From Pelotomaculum isophthalicicum JI (GTDB lineage: Bacteria > Bacillota > Desulfotomaculia > Desulfotomaculales > Pelotomaculaceae): DNA of 64,000 bases. The DNA lies in NCBI RefSeq assembly GCF_029478095.1, contig NZ_JAKOAV010000007.1, positions 62,001 to 126,000 of the forward strand, read 5' to 3'. Positions 8,762 to 48,944 of the stretch are shown piece by piece. Below the pieces are notes generated by a model. It did not search any database. It was not told the origin of the DNA and was given only the letters and a program-made list of their open reading frames with translations. The position numbers and the translations under genes are program-made. Numbering within the stretch: the first letter of the stretch is position 1; every line of letters begins with the position of its first letter.

Positions 8762-8818
8762 GGATGTCCTTTTGGACACCCATGAAGGTACAACTCCTTG
8801 GGCAGGACGGAGGGAAAA

Positions 8819-9682
8819 ATGGACCGTCTCTTACTGGTAACAGCAATAACGGTATTTATTCACCTGATCATCACGTTAAACTACTCAATACGGTTGGCCG
8901 GATTACGAACGAGGCGGTTGCTTACCGCAATTTCTATTTTTAATGTGATCTACCTTTCTGCCAGCGTGTCCAATGTAATTCAGGCTCCCTTAATGACGTC
9001 GATTGTAGAGCATTCCATAAAGGCAGGTATAGGGCAGGCGGGAGTGGAGATTCCCGCCGGCCAACTGATCTACCAGGATGCTTATAAAGAGCAACTGGTT
9101 TTACTGGAGCATAAGATGCGGCTGGTCATTTTGGCGTCAACTGTGGGATCTATGCTTGGAGCATTCATGATTCCGGCTGTGGTGCGTGTTTTTATCAGGG
9201 CGATCCGGATTTTTGAAGAAGTGGGCTCGGTGCCATTGACATTAATCAAGATTTTTTTTTCTTTGCCATGGCGGCGAATCGGCGCAGCTTGGCCGCAATA
9301 CAGTTCGCTCATACACCTATTTAAACAAAAATTGACAATTTCAAAGAATCTTTTGTTGGCGAATATTATTATGACCGGGTTTTATACTACCGGGGTACTT
9401 TCCGCTCTTTACGCCGGCGTCATGTACCCGGATTTTCGTTCTACGGCTACATCGCTTTCAGTAATAATAAATGGAGCAGCCATTTTAATAGGGGCTGTGA
9501 TGTTGGAACCTACTTTATCGTCCATTACCGACCAGGTGCTATGCGGGGTCAGGAGTGAGACTGATATCAAACAAATGACTATATGCATGGTGTTGACCCG
9601 CCTGTTAGGCACACTCTTTGCCCAGGTGATCTTTTTGCCCTGTGCTTACCTTATAAAATATTTTGCGCAACTCCTGGTATAG
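8819..9682 (+). CDS. Amj-family lipid-linked glycan flippase (DUF2837), copy 1
   Basis: This membrane protein matches the Amj/YdaH family, which in Bacillus subtilis can replace MurJ as lipid II flippase. It has about six hydrophobic segments, the N-terminal pattern Y-S-I-R-L-A-G-L-R-T-R-R, and the conserved N-I-I-M-T-G-F-Y-T-T-G-V-L-S-A-L-Y-A-G. Copy 2 at 17822 is strikingly similar along its whole length (the same F-Y-T-T-G-V-L-S-A-L-Y-A-G and F-R-[ST]-T-A-T motifs). ATG at 8819 follows GGAGGG and is preferred to the upstream in-frame TTG at 8798, giving 287 residues. Its place inside a polysaccharide locus suggests that it flips the lipid-linked repeat unit. That role is inferred and has not been described for this locus. 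Confidence 0.85.
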   Translation: MDRLLLVTAITVFIHLIITLNYSIRLAGLRTRRLLTAISIFNVIYLSASVSNVIQAPLMTSIVEHSIKAGIGQAGVEIPAGQLIYQDAYKEQLVLLEHKMRLVILASTVGSMLGAFMIPAVVRVFIRAIRIFEEVGSVPLTLIKIFFSLPWRRIGAAWPQYSSLIHLFKQKLTISKNLLLANIIMTGFYTTGVLSALYAGVMYPDFRSTATSLSVIINGAAILIGAVMLEPTLSSITDQVLCGVRSETDIKQMTICMVLTRLLGTLFAQVIFLPCAYLIKYFAQLLV

Positions 9683-17821: not shown

Positions 17822-18697
17822 ATGGAGCGGTTTTTGATTGTCATTACTCTGACAGTGATTATCCATCTGATAAGCACTTTAGCCTATTCAGTCCGGTTGG
17901 CCGGGGTGCGTACGCAGCGGCTGCTTACTGCATTTTCTCTGTATAACATAATTTACCTTGCGGCAAGTTTTTCCAATAACATACAGACCCCTTTGTTAAC
18001 TTCCATTGTAGAACACGGAATTAACGCGGGTGCGATGCAGGCTGGTTTAAATGTACCTGTCGAGCAAGTGGTTTCCCATGCGGCGTATCAGGGTCAATTG
18101 ACCTTGCTCGCGGAGCAAATTCGTCTGGTTATTGCGGCAGCCACTTTGGGCACTTTGGGAGGAGCATTCTTAGTTCCGCCTTTCGTAAGCATTTTTGTAA
18201 AAGCAATCCGGCTTTTTGAAGAAACGGGCTCGACGCTTCGTACGTTTATTAACCTTGCTATTTCCTGTCTGCCTTGGCGCTTACGTCCGAAAAGACTGCA
18301 TTTTGGGGCTTATTGCACTTTATTAAAACAGATAATCAGGCAGAAGATAAAAATACCTAAAAATTTCTTGTTGGCGAATGTTATTGTTACCGGGTTTTAT
18401 ACGACTGGTGTACTCTCAGCCCTTTATGCCGGTGCTATGTTTCCTGATTTCCGGACAACGGCCACTACGCTTTCAATGGTTGTCAACGGCTTTGCCACCA
18501 TCCTGGGAACAATGGTGGTGGAACCGACAGCGTCATCCATCACTGATGAGGCGCTACGCGGGGACAGGGATGAAGCGGACGTTAAACAAATGGCCTTCTA
18601 CATGGCATTAACACGCCTAGCCGGAACCGTTTTGGCCCAGGCGCTTTTTTTGCCGGGCGCGTATTTTATTAAGTTTATCGCACAACTACTGGCATAA
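17822..18697 (+). CDS. Amj-family lipid-linked glycan flippase (DUF2837), copy 2
   Basis: A paralogue of the protein at 8819, 291 residues, with about six hydrophobic segments. Shared patterns include Y-S-V-R-L-A-G-V-R-T-Q-R-L-L-T-A, T-S-I-V-E-H-G-I, the charged loop A-I-R-L-F-E-E-T-G-S and the signature V-T-G-F-Y-T-T-G-V-L-S-A-L-Y-A-G. In B. subtilis, Amj flips lipid II and covers loss of MurJ. ATG at 17822 follows GGGGGTAAGT. It is flanked by two minus-strand transcription units and followed by repeat element 4, so it is a single-gene unit. It could be either the housekeeping Amj or a dedicated flippase for the polymer. Confidence 0.87.
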   Translation: MERFLIVITLTVIIHLISTLAYSVRLAGVRTQRLLTAFSLYNIIYLAASFSNNIQTPLLTSIVEHGINAGAMQAGLNVPVEQVVSHAAYQGQLTLLAEQIRLVIAAATLGTLGGAFLVPPFVSIFVKAIRLFEETGSTLRTFINLAISCLPWRLRPKRLHFGAYCTLLKQIIRQKIKIPKNFLLANVIVTGFYTTGVLSALYAGAMFPDFRTTATTLSMVVNGFATILGTMVVEPTASSITDEALRGDRDEADVKQMAFYMALTRLAGTVLAQALFLPGAYFIKFIAQLLA

Positions 18698-21416: not shown

Positions 21417-22430
21417 TTATTTTACGGGTTTTACTACTAATTGTTGTTCACCGTATTCTAGCACCAATTCCCTTTCGACCCACTCACTAAAACCGCCGTC
21501 GTAGTTCTTGACATTAGAAAAGCCCATTAGCTCGTGTAGAACAAACCATACCAGAGAAGATTCCACTCCGTTGTTCGAATAAACCAGCACCTTTTTGTCC
21601 GGAGTCACTCCTTTGCTTGCCATTAGAACATTCAATTCCTGTATAGCCTTAAAAGTTTTATCCTCATTAAGAGTATCCAAAAGACTGATATTGACACTGG
21701 TGGGAATATGCCCTACCAAGTATTCATTTTTAGAACGGGTGTCAACAATGATAGTGCTTGGAGTATAGTTCAGAATCGCATCCACAACTTCTTCCAGGTT
21801 TGTGTATATGTTTGTATCCGCTTTTGCATAATTAAATGCAAAATTAGACGGCGTGATTATCGGCGCCGCCACGGCTGCCTCGAAACCTGCTTCTTTCCAC
21901 TTTTCGTACCCACCGTCCAGTATTTGAACCGGGTTGTCGCAGCCATAGGCTTTTAATATCCAGTAGATACGCGCCTGTAATCCGTCGTTGCCATAAAGCA
22001 CGATCTTCTTCTGGCTGTTTATCCCTTTGTCCCCCAAAGTTTTTTGCACCTGATCCGGGGCGGCCAACCGGTCATTGTAGGCAGGATGTGTATACTCGGC
22101 ATGCAGGATGGGGATAGCGCCGGGAACATGACCAGCAGGGTAAGAATACGCGAAAACCTGAAAGCTTCTCCCGCGTGTATCAAGAATTGACACGTTCGGG
22201 TCACTGGTCATCTTGTTTAGCTCGTAAACGCTTATTACAGCGTCAGGATTGCTGTATTCAGAAATTTTGTCAGCGGCTAATTGCGCCGGATCTTTTTGCT
22301 TCGGCTGCACCACGGCCGGTTTTGAACTGCGGTACTGGCGTTTGCAGCTCGCCAGGGCAGTTAAGGAAATCGCGAAAATTAATATAGTCGCCAGACAGTA
22401 AATTAATATGGACAGACTTTTTTTATTCAT
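21417..22430 (-). CDS. Tandem rhodanese-domain lipoprotein, active-site Cys replaced by Ser
   Basis: An exported lipoprotein with two rhodanese domains, 337 residues. The signal peptide ends in the lipobox L-A-S-C (about residue 28). Domain 1 has D-T-R-G-R-S-F-Q-V and G-H-V-P-G-A-I-P. Domain 2 has D-T-R-S-K-N-E-Y and G-H-I-P-T-S-V-N. In active sulfurtransferases the loop after the last strand starts with Cys; here it is V-Y-S-N-N-G-V-E-S-S, so the sulfur-carrying Cys is Ser. The neighbouring paralogue keeps Cys at this place. It is therefore probably not a thiosulfate sulfurtransferase and may bind or regulate instead. The start at 22430 follows GGAGGGA. Its role beside the polysaccharide genes is unknown. 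Confidence 0.85.
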   Translation of the reverse strand: MNKKSLSILIYCLATILIFAISLTALASCKRQYRSSKPAVVQPKQKDPAQLAADKISEYSNPDAVISVYELNKMTSDPNVSILDTRGRSFQVFAYSYPAGHVPGAIPILHAEYTHPAYNDRLAAPDQVQKTLGDKGINSQKKIVLYGNDGLQARIYWILKAYGCDNPVQILDGGYEKWKEAGFEAAVAAPIITPSNFAFNYAKADTNIYTNLEEVVDAILNYTPSTIIVDTRSKNEYLVGHIPTSVNISLLDTLNEDKTFKAIQELNVLMASKGVTPDKKVLVYSNNGVESSLVWFVLHELMGFSNVKNYDGGFSEWVERELVLEYGEQQLVVKPVK

Positions 22431-22480: not shown

Positions 22481-23497
22481 CTATTCACCGCTTTGGGTCT
22501 TTCGGTCCATCTTGAGCCACTCATTTAAGGAGCCGTCATAATTCTTCACATTTGGATACCCCAACAGTTGAGAAAAAGCAAACCAGACCAGTGAAGAGTC
22601 GACGCCGGAATCGCAATACACAATTATTTTTTTATCTGGGGTTATTTTTTTATTTTCAGCGAGGGCCTTCAAGTCAGAGGCAGACTTAAAAGTCAGGTCT
22701 TTGTTCAATAATTCCGCATAGAAAAAGTTTATGCTGCCGGGAATATGTTTGTATAAATATTCGTCTCTGCTCCGGGTGTCCACGATAACATTATTCGGGT
22801 TGCCGATTGCCGCTTCTACTTCATTTAGAGTTGCCAGCAACTCCATTTTTGATCTCGCTAAATCAAATTCGAATGTATCAGGCGGGCGGACAGAGTTTGC
22901 GGACGTAATATCGTAGCCTGCTTCTTTCCACTTATCCAAGCCGCCGTCCAGAATTTTTACGTTATCGTAGCCATACATCCGCATGGCCCAAAATAGTCGT
23001 GCCTGTAATCCGTCATTGCCATATAGGACAACGGTGCTTTCATTGTCGGCTCCCAGCCCGCCGAGAACATCTTGTAATTGTGGCGGTGTCGCTATCCTGT
23101 CGGTATATTTGGGGTGGGTATAGCTTTCATGCAATATGGGCACTGCCCCTGGTATATGACCGTACCGGTAAGATTTTAGGAAAACTTCATAGCTCCTGCC
23201 GCGTGTGTCAAGGGTAAATATGCTGGTATCGTAAATTTTTTGATTTAATTCGTAAACGCTGATTAGGGCTTCAGGATGCGCATAGCCGGCTATTTTTTCT
23301 GCGGCAGCCTGGCGATCCGCCGGGTCTTCTTTTTTTTCTTCAACAACCGGAGGAGTGATAACAGCTTGCTTGCGACTACATCCTCCCAGTAAGCAAGCTC
23401 CGGTGATCACATTAATGAACATTAAGAACAATACAGCCGAAAAGAAAAGTCTCCCAAAGGCAGCTCGCAACATACTTCTATTTAATTTTATTGACAT
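22481..23497 (-). CDS. Tandem rhodanese-domain lipoprotein (thiosulfate sulfurtransferase-like)
   Basis: A paralogue of the downstream gene, 338 residues, with a signal peptide and the lipobox L-G-G-C (about residue 39). Domain 1 (D-T-R-G-R-S-Y-E-V, G-H-I-P-G-A-V-P) and domain 2 (D-T-R-S-R-D-E-Y, H-I-P-G-S-I-N-F) match TST-type sulfurtransferases. The catalytic loop is V-Y-C-D-S-G-V-D-S-S, with the sulfur-accepting Cys. It would act outside the membrane on an unknown sulfur donor and acceptor. The AGGAGG site lies about 27 bases before the ATG, with GTTCTCTTGAGAAC between; folding this repeat would shorten the gap. A second ATG nine codons in is an alternative start. It is in an operon with the Ser variant, 50 bases apart. 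Confidence 0.87.
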   Translation of the reverse strand: MSIKLNRSMLRAAFGRLFFSAVLFLMFINVITGACLLGGCSRKQAVITPPVVEEKKEDPADRQAAAEKIAGYAHPEALISVYELNQKIYDTSIFTLDTRGRSYEVFLKSYRYGHIPGAVPILHESYTHPKYTDRIATPPQLQDVLGGLGADNESTVVLYGNDGLQARLFWAMRMYGYDNVKILDGGLDKWKEAGYDITSANSVRPPDTFEFDLARSKMELLATLNEVEAAIGNPNNVIVDTRSRDEYLYKHIPGSINFFYAELLNKDLTFKSASDLKALAENKKITPDKKIIVYCDSGVDSSLVWFAFSQLLGYPNVKNYDGSLNEWLKMDRKTQSGE

Positions 23498-32632: not shown

Positions 32633-33574
32633 GTGAGGCTTAAAGGGCGTAAGGTTTTAGTGACGGGGGGAGCCGGTTTTTTAGGCTCCCACTTATGTGA
32701 AAAGCTGCTCGCGGAAGGAGCGGAGGTGCATGTGCTGGATGTGTTTACTTCCGGCAGGGCCGCTAATCTGGGCGCGTTATCAGGGCAAATCAACCTTGTT
32801 AACGGTGATATCGCCAGCGCGGATTCAGTCTTAAAGGCCGTGGGGAACACCGATACGATTGTTCACCTGGCTTTTCCCCTGGCCTTGCGCGAGCGGTCAA
32901 TTGAAACTCCGGTTATAACAGGTATTTTGACCGGCCTTCTAAATTTGATCAAGGCAGCCCTTGCCCGTGACGCTTTGCTGATTTATACTTCGTCGATTGC
33001 TGTTTACGGGAATGGAAGATATGTTCCTATTGATGAAAACCACCCTTTGGAGCCTGTCCTGATACACGGCGCCGTAAAATTGGCCGGCGAAAACTTCTGC
33101 CGCACACTTGCCGGAAGCAATGGACTGCGAACGGTCATCCTCCGGGTGGCGGATATTTATGGCCCACGTAACACCAGGATCAGTGTGCCGATAAAATTCT
33201 TGCTCCAGGCTATGGCAAACGAGCCAATAACGGTATATGGGGATGGTTCCGACAGCCGCTCTTATACATTCGTTGCCGACTTTACCGAAGCGGTTGTCTT
33301 AAGCATGATCCGGCCTGAAGCAACCGGTGATGTTTTTAATGTTGGAAGTGATGAGTGTGTGTCCATGTGTGAACTAGCTTCTAACATTAGGGGAATTGTG
33401 GGAAGCGCCAGCCCGGTCCTCTTTCAGGACAGTCCGGCCGCCGGACGCAGGCTGTTTATTGACAACCGGAAATCAAAAGAGGTACTTGGCTTTAAACCGG
33501 CGTTTAGAATTGCCGAAGGGCTCGCTATAACTCACCGCTGGCTTAAAGATAACCCGGAATATTATCATTTGTAA
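32633..33574 (+). CDS. NAD-dependent epimerase/dehydratase (extended SDR)
   Basis: An extended SDR of 313 residues acting on a nucleotide sugar. The NAD motif is T-G-G-A-G-F-L-G-S-H-L. The Ser strand is Y-T-S-S-I-A-V-Y-G-N-G, and R-V-A-D-I-Y-G-P-R-N lies in the substrate lobe. The usual Y-x-x-x-K position reads I-H-G-A-V-K-L-A-G-E, so the catalytic Tyr of the SDR family is His here while Lys is kept. That change would be expected to alter or abolish normal SDR chemistry. GTG at 32633 follows GGAGG. The 3' end overlaps the convergent DUF3307 gene by ten bases. Confidence 0.82.
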   Translation: MRLKGRKVLVTGGAGFLGSHLCEKLLAEGAEVHVLDVFTSGRAANLGALSGQINLVNGDIASADSVLKAVGNTDTIVHLAFPLALRERSIETPVITGILTGLLNLIKAALARDALLIYTSSIAVYGNGRYVPIDENHPLEPVLIHGAVKLAGENFCRTLAGSNGLRTVILRVADIYGPRNTRISVPIKFLLQAMANEPITVYGDGSDSRSYTFVADFTEAVVLSMIRPEATGDVFNVGSDECVSMCELASNIRGIVGSASPVLFQDSPAAGRRLFIDNRKSKEVLGFKPAFRIAEGLAITHRWLKDNPEYYHL

Positions 33575-33891
33575 AATAGTGCCACAAGTATGGTGGCGAT
33601 GTGCAAAAGCTGATCAGTAATATTGACCGGATGCAATTTGGATAGTGATGAGGCAAAAAGGCGAATCTTGAGAAAATCGATTGTAAAATGTGTAGCAAAT
33701 AGAAAAAAGAGTTTCCATATTGAAAAAAAACCAGTTAAAATCAAGGCGAGGCTGATTACGAGCGCCCAAGACAAGGCGTGGGCGGCAAGCGCCATGATTT
33801 TTTTCCTTTTATAGGCAGCTAAACGGGTTAGCTGGAGAAAAAAATCAGCGAAGACATGTCCTGCCATTAGCAGGATTAAAATTGAAAACAT
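33565..33891 (-). CDS. DUF3307 family membrane protein
   Basis: A small integral membrane protein of 108 residues with three to four hydrophobic segments. The N-terminal pattern G-H-V-F-A-D-F-F-L-Q, the central A-A-H-A-L-S-W-A and the later F-A-T-H-F-T-I-D-F-L-K match DUF3307, a family of unknown function with conserved His and Asp inside the membrane. The start at 33891 follows GGAGGG on the minus strand. It converges on the epimerase gene with a ten-base overlap. The link to polysaccharide production is only by position. Confidence 0.82.
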   Translation of the reverse strand: MFSILILLMAGHVFADFFLQLTRLAAYKRKKIMALAAHALSWALVISLALILTGFFSIWKLFFLFATHFTIDFLKIRLFASSLSKLHPVNITDQLLHIATILVALFYK

Positions 33892-34108: not shown

Positions 34109-34178
34109 CATAAAAACTACTTTGCATCGATAATGTTTTTATTTTTTTTGGGAAAAATCTTATGGGGGAGATTAGGCT

Positions 34179-34358
34179 GTGGATAATGAAGAGATATTAA
34201 ACACTTGTAGTGATTTATTAGATAAATTAACAGTAGTTAAAGGATACCTTCAATTAAGTACTGAGCGTAAGAAGGTTGATTATTCTTTATTATTGTTGCA
34301 AGAAATCAATGAGATACAAATACTGGTATATAAAATGATTGATACATTAAAGAAATAG
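34179..34358 (+). CDS. Small Spo0B/HisKA-like helical-hairpin protein without phospho-His
   Basis: A 59-residue all-helical protein starting at GTG (34179) behind GGGGGAG (34163-34169). The segment C-S-D-L-L-D-K-L-T-V-V-K-G-Y-L-Q-L lines up with the dimerisation helix of Spo0B (recalled as R-H-D-W-M-N-K-L-Q-L-I-K-G-N-L-S-L) and with the H-boxes of sporulation kinases, but the phospho-accepting His is Ser. A second helix (L-L-L-L-Q-E-I-N-E-I-Q-I-L-V-Y-K-M-I) completes the hairpin; there is no ATPase domain. It lies 128 bases before a Spo0F-like receiver gene. It may bind that receiver without transferring phosphate; this is inference. The alignment was made by eye. Confidence 0.65.
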   Translation: MDNEEILNTCSDLLDKLTVVKGYLQLSTERKKVDYSLLLLQEINEIQILVYKMIDTLKK

Positions 34359-34486
34359 AAGGCAATTCTTCTCCGGTTCTAAATAGTTGGAATTTTGGAA
34401 CTATTTTTAGTTAGAGGATTTCAGGAAGTAATAACGAATATTAAATTAAATAATAATTGTTAAATTATACCATTGGGGAGGACATT

Positions 34487-34888
34487 ATGTCTCAATCTTC
34501 ACAATATCTGCTTATTGTTGATGATAACGTCGGGGTGTGCCGTCTTTTGTTTGAGTTGTTCAGCGATGAGGGGTATATTGTTGAGACGGCGCTAAGCGGC
34601 GCGGAAGCGCTCCGGATAGTTTGCGGCAGAACACCTTCGCTGATCCTTCTCGATGTTAAAATGCCAGGTATGAGCGGTCTGGAGACATTGGATAAAATTA
34701 AAGAAATCGTACCGGATATACCGGTAGTGATGATGACCGCGTACACTGAGCTGGACACGATAATGGCGGCCCAAAAGGATGGTTTGATCCAACATTATTT
34801 AGGCAAGCCTTTCGACTTGGATGATATTCGCCGTTTAGTCAAGAAAATTCTGCTCGACAGAGAGTGCGAGCAAAAGGTAACCGGTTAA
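34487..34888 (+). CDS. Spo0F-like stand-alone response regulator receiver
   Basis: A single receiver domain of 133 residues with no output domain. Acidic pocket residues are in L-L-I-V-D-D-N, the phospho-accepting Asp is in L-I-L-L-D-V-K-M-P-G-M, the switch Thr in V-M-M-T-A-Y-T-E-L-D and the Lys in L-G-K-P-F-D-L-D-D-I. The stretch M-T-A-Y-T-E-L-D-T-I followed by K-P-F-D-L-D-D-I-R closely resembles Spo0F. ATG at 34487 follows GGGGAGG; the upstream TTG at 34457 lacks such a site. Its stop overlaps the next gene's start (TAATG), so it is translationally coupled to the C5-epimerase gene. It could relay phosphate in a sporulation-type phosphorelay or control polymer modification. Confidence 0.85.
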   Translation: MSQSSQYLLIVDDNVGVCRLLFELFSDEGYIVETALSGAEALRIVCGRTPSLILLDVKMPGMSGLETLDKIKEIVPDIPVVMMTAYTELDTIMAAQKDGLIQHYLGKPFDLDDIRRLVKKILLDRECEQKVTG

Positions 34889-35844
34889 TGTCTTTGCAGA
34901 ATACTGGTTTAATGCTCATGCGCTGGCTGTCAATAGTATCCGGCAGGAGTTATTACCACCAAGAACAGCCGCTTGGCAAATTCTATCAGCCTGGTGGTGT
35001 TCTTGGTTATTTTAATGACTTGACAGCTAAGATAAAATGGAGGGGGCCGGTTTCAAAGGGTGGTTTTCCTTTGAACAGAACGGCTAATGGAAGCCTTGTT
35101 ATTATTCCCACGACCATAGCGCAAAAAGCTTTGGGACATTATGACAGTTGGTTGCTTGGCGGGGACCGCCGAAACCTGGATGACTTTATGATGCTTGCCG
35201 GTTGGCTGCGTGAGCACCAGGATGCGGAAGGCGGGTGGCCGATATGGCCACTACTGGGTATGTCCGGTATTTCCCATTACTCAGCAATGGTTCAAGGTGA
35301 GGCTGTTTCGGTGGCAGTGCGGGCGTATCTGCATGATCCGGAACATGCGTGGATAAGAGTGGCGGAAAACGCTGCCAGGCTAATGTTAAAACCAGTTATG
35401 GAGGGCGGGACCGCCCGGTACACGCCGGAAGGTCTTGTACTTGAGGAATATCCCTCAAAGAACCCGAACACCATCCTCAATGGGTGGTGTTTTGCTCTTT
35501 ATGGCTTGTACGATTTAAAGCTTACAAAAACATGTTTGTCTTTTGATATCGAAAAGGCGCTTAACGACACACTCCGAGCCCTGAGCATTTACTTGCCACG
35601 TTATGACGCCGGTTACTGGTCTTACTATGACACCTTGAGCAGCCTTTCCAGCCCGTTTTATCACAAATTGCACATCGCGCAGCTGCTGGCGATAGAAAAA
35701 ACATTCCCCGAGTTTGAGGCGGCAGCCCGTTTCTACCGTGTTAAATTTGAGCGCCAGTGGTCATGGAGCATAAACAGGTTTAGAGCAGTAGTAAAAAAAG
35801 GAATGCAGAAGATTTGTCACCCGCCTGAATGTATAATTCGATGA
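34888..35844 (+). CDS. D-glucuronyl C5-epimerase family protein
   Basis: The product is 318 residues and matches the C-terminal (alpha/alpha) barrel domain of D-glucuronyl C5-epimerases, which turn glucuronate into iduronate within a polymer. Typical stretches are G-V-L-G-Y-F-N-D-L-T-A-K, the central I-L-N-G-W-C-F-A-L-Y-G-L-Y-D, and Y-D-A-G-Y-W-S-Y-Y-D with the catalytic-region tyrosines. There is no signal peptide, so it would act in the cytoplasm or on lipid-linked intermediates, or be exported some other way. The ATG at 34888 overlaps the receiver gene's stop. A terminator follows at 35871. Bacterial members often lie in exopolysaccharide clusters; substrate use here is not proven. Confidence 0.83.
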   Translation: MSLQNTGLMLMRWLSIVSGRSYYHQEQPLGKFYQPGGVLGYFNDLTAKIKWRGPVSKGGFPLNRTANGSLVIIPTTIAQKALGHYDSWLLGGDRRNLDDFMMLAGWLREHQDAEGGWPIWPLLGMSGISHYSAMVQGEAVSVAVRAYLHDPEHAWIRVAENAARLMLKPVMEGGTARYTPEGLVLEEYPSKNPNTILNGWCFALYGLYDLKLTKTCLSFDIEKALNDTLRALSIYLPRYDAGYWSYYDTLSSLSSPFYHKLHIAQLLAIEKTFPEFEAAARFYRVKFERQWSWSINRFRAVVKKGMQKICHPPECIIR

Positions 35845-45220: not shown

Positions 45221-45429
45221 GCTAGCGCTCGAACAATTATAGAGGCCGAACATGAGGTGCGTTGTATACCCAAAGGTTCCCATCGGAAAATTTGTTCTTG
45301 TTGTGATTAACCTTACGACAACAAATGATAAATTATTACATATTTTATTATAAACAGCAGGAAAATTTTAATAATTATAGAAGTATCGATTTACTTGGGT
45401 TTAATCATATAAACCGGGGAAGGATTCTT

Positions 45430-46485
45430 ATGGCTATACTTATTGTTGATGACTCATCAGACAGCAGGCTGTTAATTGAATATATTTTAAAGTCGGCAGG
45501 TTACACTGATGTGCTAACCGCGGAATCGGCCCAAGAAGCCTTTAATCTTCTCGGCATGGGTAATTCACGGAGTGATGAAACGGATTTTGATTTAATCGTG
45601 ATGGATATTGTCATGCCCGGTACGGACGGCATTGAAGCATGCCGTTTAATAAAAGAGCATGAACATCTGCAGGATATTCCTGTCATCATGGTAACTGCTA
45701 ATTACGATATTGATAACCTGCAGTCAGCTTTTTCCGCCGGGGCGATGGACTATATCACGAAGCCGCTGAATAAGGTGGAGTTGCTGGCGCGCGTGCGCTC
45801 GGCATTAAGACTTAAACACGAGACGGACAGGCGGAAAGCGCGCGAGGTGGAGTTGCTGGCGCGCGTGCGCTCGGCATTAAGACTTAAACACGAGACGGAC
45901 AGGCGGAAAGCGCGCGAGGAGGAGTTGCTGGAGGTAACGCGACAACTGGAAGAAGCAAATCAGAACCTGCGCCGGCTCTCTTTTTTAGATGGCCTCACCG
46001 GTATCGCCAACCGGCGTCATTTTGATGAAATATTATTGAATGAATGGAACCGCGCGGTGCGTGATGCCATGCCGCTATCCTTAGTAATTCTTGATATAGA
46101 TTTTTTTAAAAACTATAATGACACTTATGGTCATCAGACCGGTGACGACTGTTTGAAGCATGTGGCGGGCTGTCTGAGCGGTCTCTTAAAACGGCCCGGG
46201 GATCTGGCGGCCCGCTACGGCGGCGAGGAATTTGCGGCTATCCTGCCAAACACGGATATGCAAGGGGCTGCAGCAATGGCGGAGATGCTGCGCAGCGGTA
46301 TTGAGGCGCTGCAAATTCCTCATGCCAGTTCGTCTGTCAGCGCGTTTGTCACGGTAAGCGCCGGTGTGGCATCTACCGTACCTCTACAAGCCGGCTCCCC
46401 GGAAGAATTGCTGGCGGCGGCTGACAAAGCGCTCTACCAGGCAAAGCAAAGCGGCAGGAACAGAGTGGTATTGGGGAAATTATAA
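45430..46485 (+). CDS. Response regulator diguanylate cyclase (REC-coiled coil-GGDEF)
   Basis: It makes cyclic di-GMP from two GTP under control of receiver phosphorylation. The receiver (about residues 1-125) has I-L-I-V-D-D-S, phospho-Asp in I-V-M-D-I-V-M-P-G and K-P-L-N. The linker (about 116-180) contains an exact 24-residue tandem duplication (E-L-L-A-R-V-R-S-A-L-R-L-K-H-E-T-D...). The GGDEF domain (about 180-351) has R-Y-G-G-E-E-F, an active signature, with R-P-G-D five residues before it, a match for the inhibitory I-site. ATG at 45430 follows GGGGAAGG; the longer TTG/ATG options upstream are AT-rich. The histidine kinase gene begins three bases after its stop, so the two may form one pathway. 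Confidence 0.9.
   Translation: MAILIVDDSSDSRLLIEYILKSAGYTDVLTAESAQEAFNLLGMGNSRSDETDFDLIVMDIVMPGTDGIEACRLIKEHEHLQDIPVIMVTANYDIDNLQSAFSAGAMDYITKPLNKVELLARVRSALRLKHETDRRKAREVELLARVRSALRLKHETDRRKAREEELLEVTRQLEEANQNLRRLSFLDGLTGIANRRHFDEILLNEWNRAVRDAMPLSLVILDIDFFKNYNDTYGHQTGDDCLKHVAGCLSGLLKRPGDLAARYGGEEFAAILPNTDMQGAAAMAEMLRSGIEALQIPHASSSVSAFVTVSAGVASTVPLQAGSPEELLAAADKALYQAKQSGRNRVVLGKL
45775..45918 (+). repeat. Exact 72-bp tandem duplication inside the diguanylate cyclase gene
   Basis: 45775-45846 and 45847-45918 are identical, each encoding V-E-L-L-A-R-V-R-S-A-L-R-L-K-H-E and then T-D-R-R-K-A-R-E. The reading frame is kept. Perfect identity suggests a recent duplication. It lengthens the linker helix between the receiver and GGDEF by 24 residues. 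Confidence 0.95.
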
Positions 46486-46488
46486 GAG

Positions 46489-47232
46489 ATGAAAGACTCT
46501 GATAAGACCAAAAAACAGCTGATCAATGAATTAAATGAAATGAAGAGAAAAGTTGCCGGTTTAAAAACGCCGCAGCAGGTGGAAGAAAAACTTACCTGGC
46601 TGGCTTCTATGGTGGAGTTCTCAAATGACGCGATTGTCGGGATGAGTCTTGAGGGTATTATTTTTAGCTGGAACTCGGGAGCGGAGAGAATCTACGGATA
46701 CAAGGCGGATGAAGTCATTGGCCGCCCTGTGTTTATCCTCGCGCCCAGTTACGGCGAAATAACAAGTAACCTTGAACGAATCAAGTTGGGGGAAAGGGTC
46801 GATTACTACGAAACCGTGCGCGTCAGAAAAGATTTTAGGCAGATTCAGGTTTCTTTGACTATATCCCCGATTAGAGACGCTTCAGGTAAAGTAATTGGCG
46901 CTTCAACCATAGCCCGTGATATTACCGGACAAAAGTTGATTGAAGAGAAACTGCGAACTAGTGAAGCGCGTTTCAGGGCGGTTTTCGAGGGCACGTCCGT
47001 GGGAATAACGTTAATCGACAGGGAAGGACGGCTTGTCGAAAGCAACCCGGCACTGCAGGAAATGCTCGGTTACAACGGCCAGGAACTGGCCAATATGGTT
47101 TTTGCCGAGCTCATTTACCCGGATGATAAAGTAAATTTCATTGAAATGTTTAACGATCTGTGGGCAGGCAGACAGGATAGCTATCAGATGGAAAAACGCT
47201 ATGCCCGGAAGGTGGCAGGCTGGTTTGGGTGA
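46489..47232 (+). CDS. Hybrid histidine kinase, N-terminal PAS part (separated by frameshift)
   Basis: The first 247 codons of what should be one sensor kinase. A short coiled coil is followed by PAS domain 1 (about residues 35-145: [22 protein letters not shown]) and PAS domain 2 (about 160-240: [12 protein letters not shown]). At about 47211 the expected coding for A-R-K-D-G-R-L-V-W-V becomes A-R-K-V-A-G-W-F-G and stops. One lost base (GAT to GT) explains it, because relatives read K-D-G-R-x-V-W-V. ATG at 46489 is three bases after the diguanylate cyclase stop. It is either a pseudogene or an assembly error. Confidence 0.85.
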
Positions 47233-48944
47233 GTATTAATTTCTCACTGGCCCACGACAACTTGAATGAGCCTTTGTTTATCATCGGCGTGGTGGACGAC
47301 GTTACTGAGCGAAAGCGGGTAGAGGAGGCCATGCAGCAGGCCAAAGAGGCTGCGGAAGCCGCCAATAAGGCGAAAAGTGAATTTCTGGCCAGCATGAGCC
47401 ATGAAATCCGCACGCCGATGAACGCGATTATCGGGATGGCCGAACTGCTTGGTGAAACACACCTGACTTCCGAGCAGCAAAAATATATCGTAACTTTCAG
47501 GTCGGCGGGTGAAACACTGTTAAACTTGATCAATGACATCCTCGATCTTTCCAGGGTCGAGGTGGGCCATTACGAGCTTGAAAGTATTGGTTTTAATCTT
47601 AGTAATGTGATAGAAAAAACCTGCGAAGTAATGGCTATCCGCACGCATGAAAAGGGGGTTGAGTTGGTCTGCCAGCTCATGCCCGATGTGCCCGTGGAAC
47701 TGGTCGGGGACCCCGGCCGCTTACGCCAAATTATCATCAACCTGATTGGGAACGCCATAAAATTTACCGATAAAGGCGAGGTATTGTTAAAAGTTGAGCT
47801 TGCGGACAAGCAACCGCCCTTCTCCACGGGACAAGACATGCGGGAATGCCGGTTGCTTTTTACTGTCAGCGATACCGGCATCGGAATACCGCCGGAAAAG
47901 CTGGACGTTATTTTTGAATGGTTTACTCAAGCGGACTCTTCCACCACCCGGAAATACGGAGGTACCGGACTGGGTCTAACCATTGCCAAGAGGCTCGTGG
48001 AATTGATGGGCGGACGCATCTGGGTGGAAAGTGAAGTGGGAAAGGGGAGCACCTTTTACTTTACCATCCGCTTCACTGTTCAATCAGGGCAATCTAAGGC
48101 AGAAAGATTACCGGTTGTAGATATTAAAGGGGTAAAAACACTTATTATTGATGACAATGCAACTAACCGCTTGATTCTAAAAGAAACCCTCACCGCTTGG
48201 GGCGCGATTGTGGAAGAGGCGGAAGCCGGTCTAGCTGGCCTGGCCGAATTGAAAAAGGCGAAAAAGGCGGGTTTTCCGTACAACCTTGTATTGCTTGACT
48301 GCCGTATGCCGGTGATGGACGGGTTCGAGGTGGCGGAAAAAATTCATAACGATCCCGGCCTTGCGGGTGTGACGGTAATGATGTTAACGTCGGACATGCG
48401 CATCGGTAATATGGAGCGGTACCGGGAACTGGGGATCTCTTCTTGCCTCGTTAAGCCGGTTAAACGTTCAGATTTAAGAAACGCGATTGAAACCGCCATG
48501 GGCCAAGTGAAACTGCCAAAAGAAAAAAGTGAGCCTGATGAGACAACAACGGTTTTTGCGGACCAGCGCGCCTTACGGATTCTCCTGGTGGAAGATTCCC
48601 CGGATAACCAGTTGCTGGTCCAGGCATACTTGAAGAAGACCGCCTATCAAATTGAGATTGCCGAAAATGGTGAAATAGCCGTTGAGAAGTTTAAGTCGGG
48701 AAAATACGACTTGGTCCTGATGGATATGCAAATGCCCGTGATGGATGGGTATACGGCCACAAGGACTATTAGGAAATGGGAAGCGGAGAACCGCCTGGCG
48801 CCGACTCCGGTGGTCGCTCTGACGGCTTACGCGCTAAAAGAAGACGCGCGAAAGAGCCTTGATGCGGGATGTACGGCCCACTTGACCAAACCGGTCAAGA
48901 AGTCGATATTGTTGGAGACTATCAGGGAGTACTCTCAGGGTTAA
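47229..48944 (+). CDS. Hybrid histidine kinase, catalytic and receiver part (separated by frameshift)
   Basis: This carries the rest of the sensor kinase: end of PAS 2 ([14 protein letters not shown]), a coiled coil, and HisKA with [13 protein letters not shown] (phospho-His). The ATPase has [14 protein letters not shown] and G-G-T-G-L-G-L-T. Two receivers follow: L-L-D-C-R-M-P and V-L-M-D-M-Q-M-P, both with phospho-Asp. The GTG at 47229 begins inside a coding sequence rather than behind a ribosome site, which supports a frameshift rather than two genes. If expressed as one chain it would be about 818 residues. A natural partner would be the receiver-GGDEF protein just upstream. A terminator lies at 48995. 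Confidence 0.88.

Follow-up and report, generated by a model that had tools for sequence, protein, structure and literature searches.

A histidine-less DHp-like microprotein beside a Spo0F-like receiver in Pelotomaculum isophthalicicum: a candidate decoy in the sporulation phosphorelay

Sporulation phosphorelays are tuned by their kinases and by small inhibitors and phosphatases such as Sda, Rap and Spo0E. In a 64,000-nucleotide stretch of the Pelotomaculum isophthalicicum JI genome (hereafter the window; contig NZ_JAKOAV010000007.1, positions 62,001 to 126,000), a 59-codon open reading frame lies ahead of a stand-alone receiver gene. The original prediction, drawn by eye, described its product as a Spo0B- or sporulation-kinase-like hairpin with Ser in place of the phospho-accepting His, and proposed a decoy or adaptor that binds the receiver without passing phosphate. 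This raises the question of whether the frame is a genuine gene and, if so, what a hairpin of this kind could do beside a Spo0F-like receiver.

A short gene under purifying selection

The frame (confirmed on the forward strand, with an in-frame TAG two codons 5' of its GTG start) and its 128 bp gap to the receiver ATG (34487) are as first described (Table 1). An orthologue in the genome G019 is 90% identical and has the same flanking genes; the named relatives are Pelotomaculum MAGs. The two copies differ by 14 synonymous and 5 non-synonymous changes (dN/dS 0.057), and the gene is thus under purifying selection. Paralogues are present at G000:C18 (G000 being the genome of the window), G019:C210 and G019:C133, with homologues in G008, G005 and G017. 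The homologues in relatives on which the original prediction depended were therefore found, and since orthologues and paralogues occur in other genomes, the frame is more than a product of chance.

Table 1. Features of the mini gene and its neighbours in the window
Feature	Position	Strand	Basis or remark
DUF3307 membrane protein, upstream neighbour of the mini gene	33565..33891	-	Context
Strong Shine-Dalgarno-like GGGGGAG	34164..34170	+	8 nt 5' of the mini gene GTG; sequence
Putative stand-alone pseudo-DHp hairpin, class I, 59 aa, MDNEEILNTCSDLLDKLTVVKGYLQLSTERKKVDYSLLLLQEINEIQILVYKMIDTLKK	34179..34358	+	dN/dS, AlphaFold2, hhalign
Ser11 codon, position of the phospho-accepting His	34209..34211	+	Alignment column comparison
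Asp15 codon (H+4), Asn in kinases	34221..34223	+	Alignment; CrdS literature
Specificity stretch T18 V19 G22 Y23 Q25 L26 (H+7, +8, +11, +12, +14, +15), TVGYQL	34230..34256	+	Spo0F-kinase comparison
Stand-alone Spo0F-like receiver, 133 aa	34487..34888	+	Response_reg 1.3e-26; specificity residues NGVLELD (canonical QGxLExD)
D-glucuronyl C5-epimerase-like gene	34888..35844	+	PF06662 4.4e-32; ATG overlaps receiver stop (TAATG)

Regulatory signals around the gene are few. No exact Spo0A box was found near it, with the count at chance level, and predicted promoters and terminators there were also near chance level. A weak stem-loop between the mini gene and the receiver is not kept in the G019 orthologue. 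A PHROGs search returned no meaningful phage relative.

The receiver and the epimerase are probably co-translated, since the stop codon of the first overlaps the start codon of the second. From this gene position, a link between the mini/receiver pair and polysaccharide control can be proposed as a speculation. Elsewhere, the glycan cluster contains two pairs of similar genes, at 8798-9682 and 17822-18697 (membrane protein) and at 21417-22430 and 22481-23497 (lipoprotein-like tandem). Further along the window (45325-48944), next to a receiver-containing protein (386 aa) come a PAS protein and then a kinase whose H-box reads HEIRTPMN; the genes overlap at 47229-47232 and represent either two coupled genes or a frameshift-split kinase.

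Homology, fold and the missing histidine

The lone 59-mer has no useful match in Pfam or NCBIfam, and its homology is visible through a family profile only. Such profiles, built stepwise (A1, A3, A4), were run against 113 genomes from the order and 398 from the phylum. In hhalign, the class I profile (the window type) matched sporulation HisKA with a probability of 97.3% and a score of 55 (column-shuffled controls: mean 10, maximum 19), and Spo0B with 94.3% and a score of 39 (controls averaging about 10, maximum 15); Spo0B against HisKA scored 44.5 in the same test. HisKA (PF00512) matched 11 of 24 family members, the best at 5e-4, and SPOB_a matched four. When mini-only profiles were run across the phylum, most of the weaker matches were long ORFs whose H-box fell into the alignment, namely orphan sporulation kinases (HEIRNPLTxxKGFLQL) and Spo0B (RHDFLNHLQVIxGxLQL). 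The ungapped alignment S-D-L-L-D-K-L-T-V-V-K-G-Y-L-Q-L places Ser11 at the His of both, and the register originally chosen by eye was thus correct. These profile comparisons establish homology between the mini and the DHp hairpin (HisKA/SPOB_a) of sporulation kinases, with the mini closer to their HisKA than to Spo0B. The likeness first noted is borne out for the family by profile searches, and not for the 59-mer searched alone.

The predicted structure agrees with this reading. AlphaFold2 folds the 59-mer into the expected two-helix hairpin (helices 2-28 and 35-57, pLDDT 94.7). Several HK853 DHp chains were among the Foldseek matches, with E above 0.001, although generic helical hairpins dominated and no Spo0B was among the matches listed. 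Searching PDB sequences with the family profiles gave chance matches only, including one weak HK853 match (E 0.58). The modelled fold is compatible with a DHp, and is not specific on its own, hairpins being too common.

At least 32 of the order's 113 genomes encode small stand-alone relatives (<130 aa), as do G466 and G406 outside it. In total, 38 distinct proteins were recovered (30 clusters at 70%), nearly all within the order. Rather than a one-off, the window protein is thus one of about 38 of its kind, most encoded by solitary genes. Class I comprises 13 sequences with the pattern CS-x-L-[LF]-D-x-[LI]-T-[VI]-x-K-G-Y-L-x-L ... K-K-V-D-Y-S, and class II is marked by E-D-[LI]-[RK]-N-[HQ]-L-T-x-x-K-G-F-x-Q. 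Two other types carry ELxDKxTVIRGYAQ and LIDSMTIIKGYTQ. At L058:6041-6928 (G055:C31) and L283:3505-4174 (G060), two minis of different subclasses stand in same-strand tandem.

At the phospho-acceptor column, none of the 38 small proteins has His, which is present in all 22 long kinase or Spo0B ORFs that have the column. The residues found instead are S (14), E (10), N (4), Y (3), L (2), K (2), D, G and M. Although the search was seeded with His-less sequences, the same profiles freely retrieved His-bearing kinases, and a short relative with His ought therefore to have turned up too. The G019 orthologue of the window protein carries a His one residue after Ser11. As originally stated, the window protein also lacks an ATPase domain: no linked HATPase (CA) or CA-like domain is present, the frame stops at residue 59, and no kinase ORF adjoins it in the window.

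A second catalytic position has changed as well. H+4 is Asn in all 55 kinases and Spo0B proteins with a letter there; in the minis it is D (24), N (11) or E (3), and Asp is invariant across the 13 class I proteins. Class II-type minis combine E at the His site with D at H+1 and N at H+4. Phosphatase activity of the HisKA kinase CrdS requires the Asn at H+4, and its N375D variant had no significant activity (PMC3510030). Without the His and with Asp at H+4, class I is therefore predicted to be dead for both transfer and phosphatase activity, while class II minis could still be phosphatases.

This bears on the proposal that the hairpin dephosphorylates Spo0F~P-like receivers, as Spo0E or Rap does, which seems improbable overall and is likelier for class II. 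Its precedent is EnvZ domain A, an isolated DHp of similar size that acts on a receiver and was reported to be a phosphatase on its own (Zhu et al. 2000, as cited in PMC8971529), and the second subclass (E/D/N) keeps the residue required for HisKA phosphatase activity. However, the EnvZ activity is disputed, having not been reproduced in a later mammalian-cell study (PMC8971529), and domain A is engineered and retains its His, whereas the mini is a natural gene without one. The Asp at H+4 of the window protein also argues against phosphatase activity, as does the lack of a Spo0E-family match: no class I member (0 of 13) matched the Spo0E-like phosphatase family (PF09388) up to E 10. A Spo0E-like origin, considered for the S-x-x-x-D spacing (SQELD), was rejected as homology owing to the missing Pfam match and because the SQELD motif of Spo0E sits on the other helix.

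About equally improbable is that the hairpin has some other role, for instance as a partner of RNA, of the membrane or of a glycan enzyme, or that it is what remains of a decaying kinase. Most members are solitary, helical hairpins are a common fold, and the G107 mini (L056:1362-1634, G107:C127) has a tail resembling the last ATPase-domain motif of a kinase (VDSREGEGARLRIYIPL), which suggests that this member arose from a kinase by internal deletion. Against decay or an unrelated role stand the low dN/dS, the conservation of length and DHp-specific motifs across genera, and the recurrent pairing with Spo0F-like receivers.

Receivers, recognition residues and gene pairing

The window receiver retains its pocket and catalytic residues (DD, LLD, MMTA, KPF), is 59% identical to the other Spo0F-like receiver of the genome, and has a dN/dS of 0.164 against G019. 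The original prediction held that it closely resembles Spo0F. It is indeed a Spo0F-like paralogue, like Spo0F a REC-only protein, but not a member of the Spo0F clade proper: a tree of 50 rows places it apart from the 33-receiver clade to which B. subtilis Spo0F belongs (support 100/96) and whose checked members adjoin fba. The receivers next to minis, three in all, are each of the type outside this clade (DDN, not DDQ). Both clade and neighbourhood thus ruled out a canonical Spo0F identity, even though no fba-linked Spo0F exists in the genome.

Only two receivers of this genome have E below 1e-22 (the window receiver and G000:C2:30667-31050); neither is near fba, and the sole fba match of the genome has no adjoining receiver. 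The genome does encode Spo0A (two proteins above the cut-off) and a separate, canonical-looking Spo0B (a 224-aa SPOB_a protein, G000:C12). The same holds across the lineage, where Spo0A and Spo0B are present and no fba-linked Spo0F was found (G000:C7:19569-20474 and C2:30667-31050; G001, G008, G019). The phosphorelay of this lineage may therefore rely on a Spo0F-like protein that was relocated or replaced, for which the window receiver is a candidate. The second Spo0A-like protein above the family cut-off (G000:C68:626-1372) and a second SPOB_a-type frame of 182 residues (G000:C10:3613-3750) hint at a duplicated phosphorelay.

Adjacency of mini and receiver recurs. Three different loci have a mini immediately 5' of a Spo0F-like receiver: the window locus, G019:C210 (gap of 89 bp) and G049:C19 (4 bp), with counterparts of the window locus at G019:C155 and in G041. 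Since genomes of the order hold only one to four Spo0F-like receivers of comparable similarity, such repetition is unexpected by chance. The pair is nevertheless dissociable. G001, a genome from the same genus, keeps the receiver together with all flanks and has the mini cleanly deleted, leaving the start/stop region GGGAGATAGGGCTATGAATATTAAAAAAATAG (L154:4748-4779); the loss, at G001:C20, removes the coding region almost exactly, and the ribosome site, start and stop remain. In G008, a mini directly precedes the epimerase without a receiver, the receiver gene being absent between its usual neighbours (L206). The majority of mini loci are solitary and not beside a receiver. Sporulation kinases themselves are usually solitary genes.

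Two other class I loci (G087 and G019:C133) are near sporulation-type kinases, and a member of a further subclass in G052 adjoins one. These neighbours are in keeping with the decoy reading set out below, and also with a different target, in which the mini forms mixed DHp dimers with sporulation kinases or docks on their ATPase domain and blocks autophosphorylation, comparable to Sda. DHp domains are dimerisation domains, and the HisKA of orphan sporulation kinases is the closest homologue of the minis. This explanation is unlikely all the same, given that the three tightest pairings are with receivers rather than kinases and that class I retains receiver-recognition residues. Sda is a very small helical hairpin that controls the sporulation phosphorelay by binding the kinase; the mini shares its size and shape, but is homologous to the DHp itself, and no class I member (0 of 13) matched Sda (PF08970) up to E 10.

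The recognition residues can be compared with published kinases. Davidson et al. (2018) described six kinase specificity residues, which are TVGFQL in B. subtilis KinB and mostly TTGFQ followed by L or M in sporulation kinases of D. acetoxidans (PMC6136694). By our own reading of H+7, +8, +11, +12, +14 and +15, the 59-mer carries TVGYQL, and most minis have T-[VI]-G-[YF]-x-[LIM]. The G049 mini carries Leu instead of Gly at +11 and its adjoining receiver Asn instead of Gly at the second specificity position, a single case in which the two changes are possibly compensatory. The specificity columns were tried as a conservation hot spot and were not significantly above other helix-1 columns (permutation p 0.075).

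A candidate decoy and its relation to known systems

The reading that best fits these observations, to which we assign a probability of roughly one half, takes the 59-mer for a stand-alone DHp, catalytically dead and derived from a sporulation-type kinase, which is predicted to dock on the receiver as a decoy or reader. The decoy or adaptor originally proposed is thus the best fit, with His absent in 38 of 38 minis and TVGYQL retained. Most likely, the protein would dimerise into the usual four-helix bundle and dock, through the conserved DHp face, on the adjoining Spo0F-like receiver and possibly also on the other one of the genome. It would accept no phosphate, having no His, and with Asp at H+4 it is predicted not to hydrolyse it. 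By occupying the docking surface, it would lower phosphate flow among sporulation kinases, Spo0F-like receivers and Spo0B; alternatively, it may buffer or sense the state of the receiver. This reading is weakened by the many minis that are not beside receivers, by the receiver without a mini in G001 and the mini without a receiver in G008, by the modest p value of the specificity columns, and by the displaced His of the G019 orthologue.

Several known systems share parts of this design. Orphan sporulation kinases (KinA-E; Dtox_1918) have a homologous hairpin with the same H-box register and TVGFQL or TTGFQL at the specificity positions; unlike them, the mini lacks the phospho-His, the ATPase domain and the sensor, and has Asp for Asn at H+4. 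Spo0B contributes a dimerising DHp-like hairpin to the same phosphorelay, but the mini has neither its His nor its C-terminal ATPase-like domain, and is located in a glycan cluster rather than between rpmA/rplU and obg. Pseudo-kinases with an altered His are already known. For example, the Caulobacter protein DivL has Tyr for His and binds the single-domain receiver DivK~P, yet is neither an active kinase nor an active phosphatase (PMC4211667). It thus offers a precedent for receiver binding without chemistry by a DHp that lacks the His. DivL is a large PAS-DHp-CA protein, whereas the mini is a 59-residue hairpin only and its receiver binding is a prediction. No description of stand-alone His-less DHp microproteins was found in the openly accessible literature, which was the scope of the search.

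In summary, the minis form a previously unnamed family, invisible to Pfam and NCBIfam in the case of the window's own protein, whose members probably bind Spo0F-type receivers without handing on phosphate. More tentatively, and somewhat short of even odds, spore-formers of this order may use a family of 60-90 residue phospho-dead DHp proteins as dedicated receiver-binding Spo0 regulators. These would fall into two or more catalytic types, among them pure decoys with Ser/Asp and Glu/Asn proteins that could be kinase-free phosphatases. If the decoy reading is true, a receiver-docking domain that has been cut out, stripped of its His and kept under selection would add another control of phosphorelay flux. 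The minis would then be short natural competitors for Spo0F docking, and the role of DHp domains without a histidine would become directly testable on proteins of 59 residues.
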